This document shows positions 34,507-50,149 of a stretch of 64,000 nt of DNA, one piece after another. Origin of the DNA: a virus; IMG/VR virus record IMGVR_UViG_3300032093_000049, positions 36,017 through 100,016 of that record, one strand, 5' to 3'. The stretch's first letter is position 1. Each line of letters begins with the position of its first letter. Below the pieces are notes generated by a model that was given only the letters and a program-made list of their open reading frames with translations, made no database searches and was not told where the DNA came from. A program made the translations under genes and the position numbers.

Positions 34507-34722
34507 ATGAAACCATTTGTTACAAAAGGAAAATTAGTTCTATTCATTACTGAACAAGACTACACAAACATTGAACAAGCATTTGTACATGCAGTCAAAT
34601 TAGGATACAGGCTAGAATCAGAAACTAGCAATCCTATCATAGGCAAGACACTTATAATGGTACAAGACTACACAGGTCTTTCACCATACAATAATAAACA
34701 ATCCCCAATTACTATAGAGTAA
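34507..34722 (+). CDS. Small protein, 71 aa
   Basis: This is a mixed alpha/beta protein with strands KLVLFITEQDY and KTLIMVQDY separated by a helix (NIEQAFVHAVKLGYRL). This beta-alpha-beta pattern resembles a small ferredoxin-like fold. It is followed by a terminator at 34749-34777. The function is unknown. Confidence 0.6.
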   Translation: MKPFVTKGKLVLFITEQDYTNIEQAFVHAVKLGYRLESETSNPIIGKTLIMVQDYTGLSPYNNKQSPITIE

Positions 34723-34748
34723 TCTACAGTTTATGTTACACAAGACAT

Positions 34749-34777
34749 GAGCAGGGCTACACAAGCCTTGCTCTTTT
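34749..34777 (+). terminator. Intrinsic terminator
   Basis: The hairpin GAGCAGGGCT / AAGCCTTGCTC (34749-34773, loop of about 4) is followed by TTTT. It ends the 62-aa/71-aa unit. Confidence 0.85.
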
Positions 34778-34791
34778 GTCTTTCTCATATC

Positions 34792-34814
34792 CTATTTGGA
34801 CAACCCTCTACTCA
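34792..34814 (+). promoter_or_regulatory. Promoter-like repeat, copy 3
   Basis: This copy reads CTATTTGGACAACCCTCTAC. It is flanked by an inverted repeat (CATATCC at 34787-34793, GGATATG just downstream of the block) and lies after a terminator. It probably starts the transcript that runs through the structured-RNA zone. Confidence 0.55.
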
Positions 34815-34937
34815 AACTGATACAGGATATGCAGATATATGTACATTGAATACTGTTAATTGTATATTCTCCCTGGTCACTGAAACTGTATCAGCGTATG
34901 CACATGTGTATTAAGTATTAACTATTCACAATATACT
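34815..34937 (+). other. Non-coding leader with inverted repeat
   Basis: No gene is evident. A perfect 9-bp inverted repeat CTGATACAG (near 34817) and CTGTATCAG (near 34890) encloses about 64 nt, and ATGCACATGTGT near 34900 repeats a sequence near 33620. It is the 5' part of the transcript starting at promoter-like repeat 3. Confidence 0.4.
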
Positions 34938-35163
34938 ATTCTTGGATTCCTAAAGGTAAACAAGTCTTGGAAATTACGGGGTGAGTATCCAGTAAACACT
35001 GGAAAACATTCTTGGATTCCTAAAGTTGAGTATAAATAATACATAATTACTTTAAGTAAGAGGGGCTAAGTAGTTGAGAATCAATCATACCTTATACTCA
35101 TACTACTTAACCAAAGCTCAAAATACACACATAAGTAGCCACTCTTCACTGAGTATATGGCTA
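34938..35163 (+). ncRNA. Structured RNA / leader 1 of the 34.9-37.2 kb zone
   Basis: The element starts with an 18-nt direct repeat (ATTCTTGGATTCCTAAAG at 34938-34955 and 35008-35025) with the hairpin TCCAGT/ACTGGA (34988-35003) between the copies. Then TGAGTATAA (35027-35035) pairs with TTATACTCA (35092-35100), and TAAGTAGT (35067-35074) pairs with ACTACTTA (35102-35109). These two stems cross, so they form a pseudoknot or a switch. A further hairpin TAGCCA/TGGCTA (35136-35163) lies before the next ATG at 35195. Confidence 0.5.
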
Positions 35164-35194
35164 TAAAACACTGCAATCAATTAAAACTATACAT

Positions 35195-35467
35195 ATGAAA
35201 AGAGAGTATATGATTACAACTGTATTTGTTCTACTATCTATTGTATTCTTTACTATAGGATTCTCTATAGGAGACATTAATAGAAGAGCAACAGAGTCTC
35301 CCGCGGATATATCTCAGGACTGGTCTGATGTTGGTGGTAACATTGACATAGAATACTACTTAGAAGTATCTGAAGATAGTATCTGGATAGAAAACTACAA
35401 TACCCACAAAGTATATGGTGGTAAGTATTCAGATCTTGACAGTCTAATACTAATAGACAATCTTTAA
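35195..35467 (+). CDS. Small membrane-anchored protein, 90 aa
   Basis: One N-terminal membrane helix (residues about 6-26, ITTVFVLLSIVFFTIGFSIG) is followed by an acidic 64-residue domain (EVSEDSIWIENYNTHKVYGGKYSDLDSL). It likely sits in the inner membrane. It could be an inhibitor or exclusion protein. The family is not recognised. Confidence 0.6.
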   Translation: MKREYMITTVFVLLSIVFFTIGFSIGDINRRATESPADISQDWSDVGGNIDIEYYLEVSEDSIWIENYNTHKVYGGKYSDLDSLILIDNL

Positions 35468-35517
35468 TTAATACGTAACCCTTTTATCTGATTACATATA
35501 TGTATGATTACTCTTTG

Positions 35518-35586
35518 TATGAGTATTACTTTATTAAGTAGTCTCATAGCCACCCGAGATTATCCTGAGTATGATATAAAACTACT
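35518..35586 (+). ncRNA. Predicted H-type pseudoknot leader
   Basis: Stem 1 is TATGAG (35518-35523) with CTCATA (35543-35548). Stem 2 is AGTAGT (35537-35542), in the loop of stem 1, with ACTACT (35581-35586). No nucleotide separates the end of the stem 2 5' arm from the stem 1 3' arm, so the stems can stack, as in classical pseudoknots. It precedes the 42-aa gene. Confidence 0.4.
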
Positions 35587-35621
35587 CATTCATTAGTATA
35601 TTCACCCTCAAAATAAATTAC

Positions 35622-35750
35622 ATGGAGGATAACAAAGTAATACTCTTTGAGTATACAAGAAATGGTGTTACTTATTACACCCCAAATGAAATCATTGCCA
35701 GCATGCGCAGTGAAGACGGTAAGTACTATAGCATAGAGTACACACTGTAA
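35622..35750 (+). CDS. Tiny protein, 42 aa
   Basis: ATG at 35622, TAA at 35748-35750. The sequence (MEDNKVILFEYTRNGVTYYTPNEII) is strand-rich and reads like a complete small domain. It lies between two structured RNA elements. The function is unknown. Confidence 0.5.
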   Translation: MEDNKVILFEYTRNGVTYYTPNEIIASMRSEDGKYYSIEYTL

Positions 35751-35765
35751 ATTAATTACCAATAT

Positions 35766-35858
35766 TACTCTCATCCAATTGCAGGATAACATACTACCAA
35801 TTGGCTTATGATGCCTCGGTGTTGGATGTATGTCAAGGGTTGCAACCTTGTGAGAGTA
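35766..35858 (+). ncRNA. Structured RNA A, multi-branched
   Basis: A terminal stem TACTCTCA (35766-35773) pairs with TGAGAGTA (35851-35858). Inside are a stem CATCCAA / TTGGATG (35772-35778 and 35822-35828) and a hairpin CAAGG / CCTTG (35834-35838 and 35846-35850), which makes a branched fold of 93 nt. The two outer stems share two bases, so they may alternate at the junction. Confidence 0.55.
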
Positions 35859-35864
35859 CCATAT

Positions 35865-35943
35865 AACAAAGAGAACAACTCGTACCATGGGGTTGCCTGT
35901 TAGATCAACAATGGTTAGGTCGTGGGCTTTAGTTCTCTTTGTT
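35865..35943 (+). ncRNA. Structured RNA B, 79 nt with 12-bp closing stem
   Basis: AACAAAGAGAAC (35865-35876) pairs perfectly with GTTCTCTTTGTT (35932-35943). Inside, ACCAT / ATGGT (35884-35888 and 35911-35915) and GTTG / CAAC (35892-35895 and 35906-35909) make a second hairpin. A TTTT-A-TT tract follows, so it could also end transcription, but the 55-nt structured interior is unusual for a terminator. Confidence 0.6.
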
Positions 35944-35959
35944 TTATTAATGCACCATT

Positions 35960-36105
35960 CCTGATTCCCAAGGTCAGGCAGTTGTAAGTATCATCTTAAG
36001 TTCCAAGAGAGTACTTGTGCATCACGAGTGGAATGTAGACTGTGAAACCGTAACGGGTGGAGTTTATGTACTTGCACAGTGATCTTACAACTGAGTGCAG
36101 AGGGG
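35960..36105 (+). ncRNA. Structured RNA C, copy 1 of a duplicated family
   Basis: The element has a 5' hairpin (CCTGA / TCAGG), then a long stem CAGTTGTAAG-T-ATCA (35979-35993) with TGAT-CTTACAACTG (36080-36093), and then a conserved 3' flank AGTGCAGAGGGG. Inside are CTTGTG / CACGAG and CCG / CGG hairpins. The second copy at 36571-36666 keeps the same layout with compensatory changes in the long stem. No open frame explains the conservation. Confidence 0.65.
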
Positions 36106-36144
36106 TATAAACAATAGATTAATAAAACTTAAAACTCAACTCAA

Positions 36145-36339
36145 ATGAACTATCTTATCAAAACCCAATCAGGTAACATGTACTCTTACTATACTACTAA
36201 AGACCTATCTAAATATATAGGGAGTAGTACACATATCTCCATTGGAGATGAATCATTCACGATACTACAAGTGTTAGAAGAGTATACTCCCTCAAAACGA
36301 TATATAGGTAATGAACCTTATGTTGTAACAGAACCTTAA
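36145..36339 (+). CDS. Small protein, 64 aa
   Basis: The protein is strand-rich (NYLIKTQSGNMYSYYTTKDLSKYIGSSTHISIG). The start is preceded by the recurring leader CAACTCAAATG also found before the genes at 37213, 38127 and 38306. The function is unknown. Confidence 0.55.
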   Translation: MNYLIKTQSGNMYSYYTTKDLSKYIGSSTHISIGDESFTILQVLEEYTPSKRYIGNEPYVVTEP

Positions 36340-36352
36340 TTTAAAACTTAAA

Positions 36353-36574
36353 ATGAAAACAATTAAATCAATAACTGAAGAAAACTTTTTAGAGTATGTT
36401 ATACTTACAAGAAAGTTGAGAAAACATATAATGGTGATGGAATCATTGATGATTTTTAATAAAAGAAAGGGTAACAAAACAGGTTATTTCAAGAATCAAA
36501 TTGAGATAGCAGAAAAAAACTTCTTGAAATACAATAGACAGGTGCAAAGCCTGTATCCTAATGCACTAATCTGA
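36353..36574 (+). CDS. Small basic helical protein, 73 aa
   Basis: The protein is helical and Lys-rich (NFLEYVILTRKLRKHIMVMESLMIFNKRKGNKTGYF). It is 13 bases after the previous gene, so they are co-transcribed. Its stop codon lies inside the 5' hairpin of RNA D. The function is unknown. Confidence 0.55.
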   Translation: MKTIKSITEENFLEYVILTRKLRKHIMVMESLMIFNKRKGNKTGYFKNQIEIAEKNFLKYNRQVQSLYPNALI

Positions 36575-36666
36575 CCTTGGTCAGGCAGTTGTGATACTAA
36601 CATGTAGTTAGCCTGTGAGTATACGGGATGCTGGAATACCAGTTATCACAACTAAGTGCAGAGGGG
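36571..36666 (+). ncRNA. Structured RNA D, copy 2 of a duplicated family
   Basis: The 5' hairpin is CTGACC / GGTCAG (36571-36576 and 36579-36584). The long stem is AGTTGTGATA (36587-36596) with TATCACAACT (36644-36653), and the same 3' flank AAGTGCAGAGGGG follows. Compared with copy 1, AAG/CTT becomes GATA/TATC: both sides of the stem changed together while the flanks stayed the same. An inner hairpin CTAAC / GTTAG is also present. Confidence 0.65.
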
Positions 36667-36674
36667 TCAAATAA

Positions 36675-36748
36675 TAGGTTAGTAAAAATAGTTTAGAGCG
36701 GAACGGTTCCACTAACCTATGCTACATTGGTGGATAACCTCTGTAGCA
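36675..36748 (+). ncRNA. Structured RNA E, two adjacent stems
   Basis: The first stem is TAGGTTAGT (36675-36683) with ACTAACCTA (36711-36719), 9 bp, enclosing GGAA-CGG-TTCC. It abuts a second, TGCTACA (36720-36726) with TGTAGCA (36742-36748), 7 bp with an inner GGT/ACC. It directly follows RNA D. Confidence 0.5.
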
Positions 36749-36763
36749 CTAATCTATCTTTGA

Positions 36764-36848
36764 TGCACTGACACAACTAATGAACAGAGGCCGTCATCAC
36801 AGGATTTATTCTGTCTATCTGCCTAGTAGTTAGTTGTGTCTCAGTGCA
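36764..36848 (+). ncRNA. Structured RNA F, long hairpin
   Basis: TGCACTGA-CACAACTAA (36764-36780) pairs with TTAGTTGTG-TC-TCAGTGCA (36830-36848), a 17-bp stem with a 2-nt bulge, enclosing about 49 nt. No T-tract follows on the plus strand, so it is not an ordinary terminator. Confidence 0.6.
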
Positions 36849-36885
36849 AAAAAGTATTAATCAGTAACCAATTAAACACACATAT

Positions 36886-37047
36886 ATGATTTCAAATTTG
36901 ATTTTGGAAATTGCTGTATTAGTAACAGCAGTAAATGGTTCTTGTCCTAAAGAGTACAAAGAATCATTAAGTAAATTACAGAAGAGTGATTTGCTTATGC
37001 TCAAAGAATCTTATGAGCAAGAACTCTCTATTGTTACAAAAAATTGA
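36886..37047 (+). CDS. Small protein, 53 aa
   Basis: ATG at 36886, TGA at 37045-37047. The N-terminal half is hydrophobic (ISNLILEIAVLVTAVNGSC) with a Cys at residue 20, and the C-terminal half is a charged helix. A signal-peptide or weak membrane anchor is possible. The function is unknown. Confidence 0.5.
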   Translation: MISNLILEIAVLVTAVNGSCPKEYKESLSKLQKSDLLMLKESYEQELSIVTKN

Positions 37048-37186
37048 TGCATCTTTAGGATGCAGGTGGTTGGGAAGCATACCTTATGAACTTTCAAAAG
37101 TGCAGCCGTGCTGTTACACATTTATGTGGCTATACAGATAACGCGGTCAGTAGAAGCACCAGAAGAGCTAATAACTTTAGGCTCTT
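37048..37186 (+). ncRNA. Structured leader G before the 285-aa gene
   Basis: The hairpin TGCATC / GATGCA (37048-37064, loop 5) begins directly after the stop of the upstream gene. A second hairpin AAGAGC / GCTCTT (37163-37168 and 37181-37186) ends before the ATG at 37213. The segment between them contains only short, weak pairings. Confidence 0.4.
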
Positions 37187-37212
37187 ATTTATCAACTCAA
37201 AAATCAACTCAA

Positions 37213-38070
37213 ATGAAAATTCACTTAAAATCTAGACAAGGATTATTTACTGTAGTTACCTATGGTAGAAACTCAATAACACTGTGCACTAAGCATGAAA
37301 CATTTAGTGTACCATCTGAAGACTTCAAATGTTTTGCAGGTGGTGGATGGGCAGAGTCTACAGCTGAAGAACAAAGACTGTTTATGTCAGTAGTAGCTCC
37401 TCTTGCTCTTCAAAAAACAATGGAGATAGAAGCAAAGATAACTGCAATGGCAAGTTTAATTGATATCAGAGACAAAGCAAAGAATCTTGCTTCTGAGTAT
37501 ATATCTGCTATTGCTGCACAAGAAGGAGAAGACTATGAAAATACAGTTCTCAATACTGATGATCTTGAAGATTCTTATGAAGCTGAAATGAGAAGACAAG
37601 ATCTTGCAAGAACTCCTGAACAATGGTATGCTAAAATTCAAGAGAAGCAAGATGAAACTGAGAGATTAAGAAAGAAACTTGTAAATATTGCTTCTAAAGT
37701 CTATAAGTCACCAGTTGATTTATCAGACTTTCAGAATAGCAATGGTATCAAGTTTATTATACAAGTTGCCCATGATGATGAAACAGATTGCAGAATGTGT
37801 TTTGATCCATATCAATTTGTAGAGAACTTTCATAGCTCTATCAGTGAAGTATACCGTAACAGCAAATATTTTACTGCTAATGGTGGATGGTTGAAAGTAA
37901 TAGGTAATGATGTTATCCTTTACTATAAATCAGGAGACTATGGTGTGTATAATGATACTGTTGCTATAGAGTGTGCAAAGAGACTGTTCCCAAATAAAGA
38001 AATTCATTCTTATGCGGGAAGACAATGGGATTCAGAATTAGATAATCTATTTACAGAATTACCATTTTAA
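37213..38070 (+). CDS. Protein of unknown function, 285 aa, coiled-coil centre
   Basis: The start chosen is the ATG at 37213 with the CAACTCAAATG leader. Upstream in-frame start codons (from 37108) fall inside the structured leader. The protein is helical and charged in the middle (residues about 60-175, WYAKIQEKQDETERLRKKLVNIA). Both ends are beta-rich with similar GGGWAES / NGGWLKV elements. The function is unknown. Confidence 0.6.
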   Translation: MKIHLKSRQGLFTVVTYGRNSITLCTKHETFSVPSEDFKCFAGGGWAESTAEEQRLFMSVVAPLALQKTMEIEAKITAMASLIDIRDKAKNLASEYISAIAAQEGEDYENTVLNTDDLEDSYEAEMRRQDLARTPEQWYAKIQEKQDETERLRKKLVNIASKVYKSPVDLSDFQNSNGIKFIIQVAHDDETDCRMCFDPYQFVENFHSSISEVYRNSKYFTANGGWLKVIGNDVILYYKSGDYGVYNDTVAIECAKRLFPNKEIHSYAGRQWDSELDNLFTELPF

Positions 38071-38126
38071 CCTGCTGTCCTGAGTATGACGTTTAAAGTG
38101 CTCATTTAACTTAAAAATTAACTCAA

Positions 38127-49099: not shown

Positions 49100-49302
49100 G
49101 AGTAGAGATTTTAATGAATGGTACAGTTAAGATTGTGCTTATTCCAGAGAATGATATTGAGACAGCTATTGTAAAGCAGGTTGCTGCCGGTGGTGTAGAT
49201 GCTACTATTATTACGCAACACACACAGATCTTGGATAAGGTTATACAAGATGGATTAGTTATATCACCTCAGAAGGGAGATGGCAGTAGTTTCAAAGGTT
49301 AA
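49096..49302 (+). CDS. Small protein, 68 aa
   Basis: The protein is strand-rich at first (VEILMNGTVKIVLIPENDIE), then helical (AIVKQVAAGG). It overlaps the SPL-like gene by 23 bases. The function is unknown; it could modify or help its enzyme partner. Confidence 0.55.
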   Translation: MRVEILMNGTVKIVLIPENDIETAIVKQVAAGGVDATIITQHTQILDKVIQDGLVISPQKGDGSSFKG

Positions 49303-50149
49303 GAGAAAGTCAATGGTTATAAGACCCAGTGGCCGTAGTACGGACTTTATTAGTCCAAGCTTTGGCCACGGGTGTCTTTATAACTGTACTTATTGTTACA
49401 TGAAGAGACACAAACCGGAAGGATTAAGCATAGCAACTAATACTATGGATATCCTGACGGAGATTAATTCACATGCATACTTTGCAGATGTAGAGAAACC
49501 AAATCAGACGGGAGAGTATGTAACTTATGATATTTCTTGTAATGAAGACTTTGCTCTGCATGCTAAATATCATGAATGGGAAAAGATCTTTGCATTCTTT
49601 AGAGATCATCCACTTGCTATGGGTTCATTTGCTACTAAGTATGTAAATAAGGATTTACTTAAGTTTAATCCTGAAGGTAAAATCAGAATTAGATTTAGTC
49701 TTATGCCTGAACATTATAGAAGAATACTTGAACCAAATACTTCTTCTACGTTTGAAAGAATTGAAGCCCTTGATATGTTTATTGATGCTGGCTATGAAGT
49801 TCATCTTAATTTTAGTCCTGTCATTGTAAAAGCTTTTTGGTTAGAAAGTTACAGGGATTTGTTTGATGCAGTTAGTGCAAGAGCAAATGTTTTTGCCTGG
49901 GATACTAATGATGTCAAAGCTGAAGTAATCTTCTTAACACACAATGAACAGAAACATTTGTACAATCTAGAGCATAATCTACCAGGTGAGGAGCTATTAT
50001 GGAAACCAGAAATACAAGAGAGTAAAATATCTGAGTATGGTGGTAAGAATATCAGGTATAAACATGATCTAAAAGCTGAGTATATTAAACAGTTTACTGA
50101 GCTACATGACCAGATTATACCTTGGAACACAATAAGATATATTTTCTGA
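49280..50149 (+). CDS. Spore-photoproduct-lyase-like radical SAM enzyme
   Basis: This 289-aa protein matches B. subtilis SPL across most of its length. Residues 29-41 are GHGCLYNCTYCYM with the Cx3Cx2C iron-sulfur motif (C32, C36, C39). C87 in YDISCNED aligns with the essential hydrogen-donor Cys of SPL (FEASCTSD). FATKYVNKDLL, IRIRFSLMPEHYRRILEPNTSS and INFSPV-like segments also line up with SPL. SPL repairs UV thymine dimers directly, using S-adenosylmethionine. It is close to UDG and NinB-like genes. The family is a strong match; the substrate is inferred. Confidence 0.85.
   Translation: MAVVSKVKRKSMVIRPSGRSTDFISPSFGHGCLYNCTYCYMKRHKPEGLSIATNTMDILTEINSHAYFADVEKPNQTGEYVTYDISCNEDFALHAKYHEWEKIFAFFRDHPLAMGSFATKYVNKDLLKFNPEGKIRIRFSLMPEHYRRILEPNTSSTFERIEALDMFIDAGYEVHLNFSPVIVKAFWLESYRDLFDAVSARANVFAWDTNDVKAEVIFLTHNEQKHLYNLEHNLPGEELLWKPEIQESKISEYGGKNIRYKHDLKAEYIKQFTELHDQIIPWNTIRYIF

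Follow-up and report, generated by a model that had tools for sequence, protein, structure and literature searches.

Why does coding sequence yield to structured RNA between positions 34723 and 37213 of this viral DNA, and what might that RNA do? The stretch that we analysed (the window, 64,000 nucleotides [nt]) covers positions 36,017 to 100,016 of the 100,016-bp IMG/VR virus record IMGVR_UViG_3300032093_000049, and its zone 34938-37186 had been described in an original prediction as a dense run of RNA folds interleaved with six tiny genes. Comparison with other viral contigs favours the reading that the zone is an RNA island, that is, an intergenic one-strand run of structured RNAs amid few tiny genes, which would yield scaffolded RNAs with exchangeable payloads; we put the probability of this reading at roughly 0.6. 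Two of its element families, F1 and F2, are also found in many other viral contigs, where they show compensatory changes. Together with a third kind of element found in related contigs, T, they each form a chassis that holds out a separately structured, exchangeable payload. At the level of sequence, the comparison establishes the chassis structures, the variability of the payloads, their replacement between matching flanks and a fixed orientation, strand and order.

The predicted density of folds was borne out. The zone contains 9 perfect stems of ≥9 bp, compared to a mean of 1.99 (standard deviation 1.42, maximum 6) in 200 dinucleotide shuffles, and the 4 of 248 sliding windows that reached 9 such stems all overlap it. 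Its coding fraction is 0.498 against a median of 0.964 across the window, both estimated from ATG-initiated open reading frames (ORFs) of ≥40 amino acids (aa) and no gene finder, so that the zone has both the highest stem density and the lowest coding fraction of the 64 kb. Folding of 11 stretches of the zone, each against 200 shuffles, gave z ≤-2.6 in 8 of them: the scores were -2.75 (35060), -2.64 (35516), -2.91 (35764, F2), -3.53 (35858) and -2.43 (35951, F1) in the first half and -3.06 (36559, F1), -3.63 (36672), -4.43 (36719) and -6.12 (36756) in the second, while three control coding stretches scored -0.42, -0.90 and -1.10. The stretches 34935-35030 (z -0.12) and 37048-37192 (z -1.16) folded no better than their shuffles, and the fold claimed at 34938 was thus not recovered. 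Within 34700-37400 we found 4 terminator-like sites (a GC-rich hairpin and then a T run) compared to 1.0 in shuffles, a surplus that would fit ordinary terminators or chance hairpins. However, none of the 4 lies at any of the eight folds originally singled out, most of which had been predicted not to be terminators, and the sole site on the plus strand is at 34749-34773. Covariation and the spread of F1 and F2, described below, exclude that explanation for these two families and leave it scarcely credible for the zone as a whole, although it may apply at 34938 and 37048. Rfam 15 gave 0 matches in the window at the gathering cut-off and, in 34700-37400, three matches that all fell under the cut-off (E ≥0.76).

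F1 is built from three stems (P1 to P3) and a loop-tail pseudoknot, which form a fixed frame around a variable middle. Both copies lie on the plus strand. In the first (35951-36106), P1 pairs 35951-35955 with 36095-36099, P2 pairs 35960-35964 with 35974-35978, P3 pairs 35979-35988 with 36084-36093, and the loop CCC at 35967-35969 pairs with GGG at 36102-36104, which leaves a 95-nt payload at 35989-36083. The second copy (36562-36667) starts within the 3' end of the ORF 36353-36574 and has P1 at 36562-36566/36656-36660, a P2 hairpin at 36571-36584 with a variant loop, P3 at 36587-36596/36644-36653 and a payload at 36597-36643 in which three hairpins are predicted within P3. These two copies are the two sites in the window that fit the F1 pattern with ≤3 mismatches, where 0.01 would be expected by chance. 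A search of viral contigs with the 3' end of the 35951 element returned 97 stretches, two of which (L017 and L069) were rejected as F1 on inspection. Outside three contigs nearly identical to the window, the chassis part of copy 1 was alone in being matched among the best matches listed. A covariance model (R1) matched 27 of 28 F1-holding records at E ≤0.1, many of them weakly. Among genome contigs, the F1 search gave 2 hits, of which L312 is a genuine F1 and L311 is not; neither F1 nor F2 had a convincing match among cultured phages.

Compensatory changes in F1 had to be read against the way in which the elements were collected. The loci L003-L099 were retrieved by the 3' half of F1, so that P1, P3 and the pseudoknot are partly preset in them; of the 64 rows used for the shuffle test, 34 were retrieved otherwise. 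All elements were chosen with a paired P3, and the 101-element and 64-row sets also with a paired P2 and a TGCAC-like 5' side, while a selection that also required P1 pairing was not used as a test. With its 3' partner ignored in selection, P1 is perfectly paired in 92 of the 101, as TGCAC/GTGCA (74), TGTAC/GTACA (9), TGTAC/GTGCA (4), TGCAT/ATGCA (3), TGCGC/GTGCA (1) or TGCGT/ACGCA (1). The combination of TGCAC with GTACA occurs in none of the 101, and several of the 9 imperfect cases are due to a plainly wrong 3' partner. The 64 distinct rows hold 13 doubly changed P1 cells compared to 3.0 in shuffles (0/500), and in alignment A1, for which P2 was not used in selection, double changes were seen at 5 of 5 P2 pairs. 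For the pseudoknot, an initial shuffle test was weak (5/500), with CCC/GGG in 50 of the 64 rows and CAC/GTG in 2. As a prediction test, the viral collection was then scanned three times for F1 elements whose loop carries an altered base, which gave five contigs. The middle base was altered in three of them, always to CAC, and GTG replaced GGG in 3/3; adding L039, L060 and L188, GTG accompanies CAC in 6/6 F1 elements on three different P2 stems. In L021 the loop is TCC and GGGG is retained, which still pairs with one G-U. The F1 chassis would accordingly be a three-way junction of P1, P2 and P3, locked by the pseudoknot and presenting the payload. Locus L039 carries an F1 nearly free of payload, indicating that the chassis exists as a separate unit. 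We also observed a two-armed F1 variant, in which CTGATTAA/TTAATCAG closes an additional payload arm ahead of the P2 hairpin (L032 9197, L045 708, L049 13209, L076 3310 and L078 6263, in island orientation); in L032 and L076 the extra payload includes sequence resembling a tRNA T arm.

F2 lies at 35766-35858 (plus strand) and consists of P1 TACTCTCA/TGAGAGTA, the core TCCAATTGCAGG, the payload and the hairpin CAAGGGTTGCAACCTTG. Across the family, the layout is a long P1, a TCCAAGCAGG core and a CAAGGRTTGCAACCTTG hairpin, and it recurs in at least 119 stretches of viral contigs (the totals for F2 and T are lower bounds). The 8-bp P1 is paired at 8/8 positions in 94 of 123 candidates and at 7/8 in 5; the remaining 24 are mostly false matches that were kept in the denominator. 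P1 is re-paired in several forms, among them TGTTCTTG/CAAGAACA, TATAAATG/CGTTTATA and TACTCTTG/CAAGAGTA, and the hairpin also covaries in step. The covariation check in related phages was therefore passed by F1 and F2, and the suggestion of a set of phage structured RNAs holds for both. Judged from sequence, F1 and F2 are two new RNA families without an Rfam match. A small hairpin upstream, F3 (CCTGAGTATGATATAAAACTACTC, 35564-35587, plus strand), recurs as well: the stretch 35480-35612 had 35 matches in 30 loci (one of them a near-identical contig), those listed cover the hairpin, and in 28 cases F3 lies no more than 600 nt ahead of F2. A second copy of the F3 hairpin is found at 38079-38104, shortly past the stop codon of the gene 37213-38070.

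In related contigs, the chassis T has the acceptor stem, D arm and T arm of a tRNA, with a payload in place of the anticodon arm. The three tRNA parts are present by construction of the finder. Independently of it, some T elements match RF00005 with 34-45 bits and the payload as an insert. The acceptor is AGTCAGG/CCTGACT in 175 of 216. An anticodon arm (a 5-bp stem and 7-nt loop following the D arm) was absent from its expected place in 194 of 215 T elements, counted at any body length after one zero-length artefact was dropped from the 216. Among the other 21, 11 have bodies of ≤95 nt, including some true tRNAs, and the 10 longer ones are at about chance level; in bodies of >110 nt, the arm occurs at the expected place in 8 of 75, compared to 1-8 of 75 at shifted places. 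A true tRNA whose acceptor equals that of T was seen at least once, in L135. The T 3'-half pattern matched up to 11 times per record (11 in two records), whereas a reversed-pattern control gave 0 in 43 records, and some contigs carry at least 4 T elements. Tandem tRNA bodies with differing payloads are seen at L091 6043-6913 (minus-strand coordinates), L107, L113 and L135 and in records G030 and G045, and T matches also occur in contigs of up to 288 kb. A T query matched 327 records of cultured phages, none over 80% of the query, and 20 of the 30 matches listed are at annotated tRNAs. The cultured Tenacibaculum phage pT24 (L313 2160-3240) has "undetermined" tRNAs and other sequence between its tRNAs; it holds no T element by our T test and is a possible laboratory model.

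The payloads are highly diverse, with 108 clusters among 137 distinct payloads in F1, 47 among 102 in F2 and 175 among 211 in T. We compared 150 nt of flanking sequence per side for 435 elements. Where both flanks were alike, the payload was unrelated rather than the same in 12:2 pairs for F1, 10:2 for F2 and 22:3 for T (44 versus 7 in total). As these pair counts are not independent, independent flank groups were counted separately, and a swap was found in 4/5, 6/7 and 3/5 of them, respectively (13/17). Conversely, related payloads (≥80% identity) recur in unrelated flanks in 31, 150 and 31 pairs. In four alignments (e.g., L107/L128 and L047/L067), the change starts and stops at or near the chassis border. 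Among the roles originally suggested, a riboregulator adapted to a single downstream gene is hard to reconcile with payloads that are replaced while the flanks remain constant. Exchange bordered by the chassis, whose arms are inverted repeats, could also be expected of integron- or invertase-like DNA recombination cassettes, with the stems as recombination sites and no RNA role. However, related payloads were never inverted (0 pairs versus 235 direct) despite the inverted repeats, and 170 of 170 loci with more than one element have them all on the same strand. G-U pairs (TGTAC/GTGCA), a tRNA body as one of the chassis and the ribozymes found alongside also argue against such cassettes, which we regard as very improbable.

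F1, F2 and T are covered by same-strand ORFs to 0.067, 0.084 and 0.045, compared to 0.52, 0.50 and 0.67 at random places, and the next gene is on the element's own strand rather than the other in 117:12, 82:13 and 156:37 cases. Within 600 nt, F2 precedes F1 in 77 cases and F1 precedes F2 in 7. The position of the elements between genes, mostly on the gene strand, would suit cis elements of the message, such as processing sites, exonuclease blocks or spacers, in which the payload is a passive stem extension that recombination shuffles and that is tolerated since it has no function. The nearly empty F1 of L039 and the weak folding of single payloads are consistent with this, as is the likeness of a three-way junction with a hairpin loop pairing to the 3' tail to exonuclease-resistant viral RNAs. 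However, F1 lies a median of 145 nt away from the next ATG ORF, related payloads recur in unrelated flanks, and a tRNA chassis is unexpected in a cis role. Moreover, 17 payload clusters of at least 3 members hold 32 doubly changed pairs compared to 6.05 in column shuffles, with one or more such pairs in 10 of the 17, which indicates that payloads are kept as structured RNAs. The passive spacer is the strongest rival, although we consider it unlikely.

Known ribozymes are present in some of the islands. Hatchet ribozymes (RF02678, >51 bits) were detected in 9 of 32 scanned loci (L058 8766-8903, L004, L047, L048, L057, L059, L068, L078 and L274), and in 9/9 of these the ribozyme shares the strand of the nearby F2 or F1 and lies 495-1364 nt upstream of it. 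The 32 loci were chosen by hand, some for a neighbouring conserved stem, so that 9/32 is no estimate of frequency and the count in whole records given below is fairer. F1, and perhaps F2, could be self-cleaving ribozymes of a new kind, whose peripheral stem varies and which cut the transcript beside hatchet; conserved unpaired bases, the pseudoknotted core and the shared islands agree with such an activity. However, the window has no Rfam ribozyme match, hepatitis delta virus (HDV)-like and theta ribozymes, with their nested double pseudoknot and cleavage 5' of G1, included, the pairing order appears unlike those of HDV, pistol, twister and hatchet ribozymes, and T would be left unexplained. 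A ribozyme identity for F1 thus seems improbable to us. Further conserved folds adjoin the elements. In one of them, the complementary arms TATTCTCC/GGGAGAATA interleave with ATTCCACTT/AAGTGGAAT, as is the layout in H-type pseudoknots (L004 6665, L047, L048, L058, L059, L068 and L086). Another is a long-range stem, CTTCTCTTC/GAAGAGAAG, with a conserved interior (L012 5873, L013 6783, L025 5264 and L047 12646), whose 8-mer CTTCTCTT pairs at the same distance in 16 loci. A third, with the stem TTGCAATA/TATTGCAA and GGTCATCCGAAGG, is near-identical across contigs (L023 6422, L033 1288, L039 3765, L066 8144 and L084 9332; all these positions are in island orientation).

Several observations weigh against an island of scaffolded RNAs. 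In F1, double changes at 7 of 10 P3 positions are not an independent test, because P3 pairing was required in selection, and the same applies to P2 in the 64-row set. The pseudoknot is not universal: 12 of the 64 rows show neither pairing, some of them with a wrong 3' partner; L317 (CCT) and L269 have another loop and no G tail; and the second F1 copy of the window lacks CCC and hence this pseudoknot. Neither T nor a hatchet ribozyme was found in the window's record (G000), and 3 of 30 whole records hold a hatchet. The folding of single payload sequences exceeds that of shuffles by only a little (mean z -0.84, -1.03 and -0.61, with -0.42 for the coding control), and we found no convincing motif common to the payloads. 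A role of the payloads as antisense to their own locus was rejected, since matches of 419 payloads were not above shuffles at 11-13 nt; longer matches numbered 4 versus 1-4 at 14 nt and 1 versus 0 at 16 nt. Finally, exchange of payloads across chassis kinds is rare, with one weak and two better cases, and free movement between the kinds was thus not borne out. At L056 10265-10339, a plain stem directly between an F2-like end and the TAATGCACC start of an F1 holds a payload that L055 and L077 carry in F1; this plain stem is a possible fourth chassis.

If the RNA island reading is correct, the region would be transcribed and the transcript cut into discrete RNAs. Host RNase P and the enzymes that process tRNA 3' ends could release T, and some islands may be cut by their hatchet ribozymes; these steps are proposed by analogy with tRNA maturation and self-cleaving ribozymes in general. 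The chassis may protect the RNA, and short homologous chassis would serve as recombination handles, so that payloads are swapped by recombination between chassis copies. The least certain step is the last one, in which the payloads would serve in trans as ligands of host or rival factors or as decoys for them. This proposal is tentative, and such action would explain the turnover of the payloads.

The remaining folds of the zone, all on the plus strand, are less widespread. Relatives of the stem-loop at 35064-35112, the plain long stem at 35861-35947, the stem-loop with a 10-bp perfect stem at 36674-36720 and the hairpin at 36720-36748 were not found in the compared loci except in the three near-identical contigs. 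The plain stem, which is structured inside and lies between F2 and F1, occupies the same position as the plain-stem payload holder of L056. The long stem at 36758-36854, with outer TGCACTGA/TCAGTGCA and inner ACACAACTAA/TTAGTTGTGT arms, has an F1-like layout and a single weak match outside the near-identical contigs (L103, E 0.019). At 34938-35025, an 18-nt direct repeat flanks a small hairpin.

With respect to the tiny genes, the mechanical ORF list gave five candidates of 42-90 aa at 35195-37047, all on the plus strand, whose relatives were counted without the three near-identical contigs. The 90-aa ORF 35195-35467 has relatives in 31 loci and no Pfam match was found for it; the 73-aa ORF 36353-36574 has relatives in 5 loci and the 42-aa ORF 35622-35750 in 1. 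No relatives were found for the 64-aa ORF 36145-36339, which had one Pfam match under the cut-off (E 0.034), or for the 53-aa ORF 36886-37047. Since relatives are so unevenly spread, the six tiny coding regions of the original prediction are only partly supported: three of the five candidates have relatives and two do not. Regarding the identity of the phage, the terminase is 23.6-26.0% identical to those of uncultured and Flavobacterium phages (15 listed of 121 matches), and the window's record matches phrog_6547 and phrog_6681, which bear on the terminase and portal question; terminase and portal may point, distantly, to a crAss-like phage. At 49280-50149 of the window, the phage also carries a gene whose product is related to spore photoproduct lyase (PF20903), which is a radical SAM enzyme.

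Some arrangements resemble T in part. In tmRNA, the anticodon arm of a tRNA-like domain is likewise replaced by other RNA, but T has a normal D arm and no common insert. Engineered tRNA scaffolds, in which a tRNA body carries a foreign RNA domain for RNA expression, are man-made, and T would be their natural counterpart. The stable RNAs C and D of T4, of unknown role and encoded in a phage tRNA cluster, are likened to the present elements by description and not by sequence.

Published phage RNAs offer further comparisons. Theta ribozymes, which are HDV-like and found at the 3' ends of phage tRNAs, share with the elements described here a place beside phage tRNA genes, hosts thought to include Bacteroidota and the theme of RNA maturation; as far as the parts of that report available to us go, they differ in their HDV-type fold and self-cleavage, with payload exchange not reported (PMC10879173), and the F1 pairing order appears to be another. 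Hatchet, according to the portion of the report covered, was known in 2015 solely from metagenomic DNA, with no completely sequenced organism (PMC4604424); it shares islands with F1 and F2 yet is a separate element. GOLLD and ROOL, phage and prophage RNAs near tRNA islands, also combine a conserved part with a variable linker, which in GOLLD sometimes holds tRNAs, but in the sections consulted they are far larger and cage-forming rather than short payloads in several chassis (PMC12286853). Such elements were not described in the literature searched, whose coverage excluded preprints and most subscription journals, nor in the accessible part of a structured-RNA survey of human microbiomes (PMC8040213). 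Within this partial coverage, a fixed RNA scaffold that exchanges its entire inner domain between phages was not found described and would be a new arrangement.

Taken at its broadest, the finding might represent a natural phage RNA display, in which several unrelated scaffolds, tRNA bodies lacking the anticodon arm included, present hundreds of structured RNA domains, which phages would trade as they do gene cassettes, as effectors against hosts or rivals; we offer this as a possibility that we hold with less than even confidence. The island would contribute a natural class of tRNA scaffolds and two RNA families whose fold is defined, and hatchet ribozymes would gain a genomic setting in viral contigs. 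It would also exemplify modular RNA evolution of a kind that replaces an entire inner domain at a fixed place.

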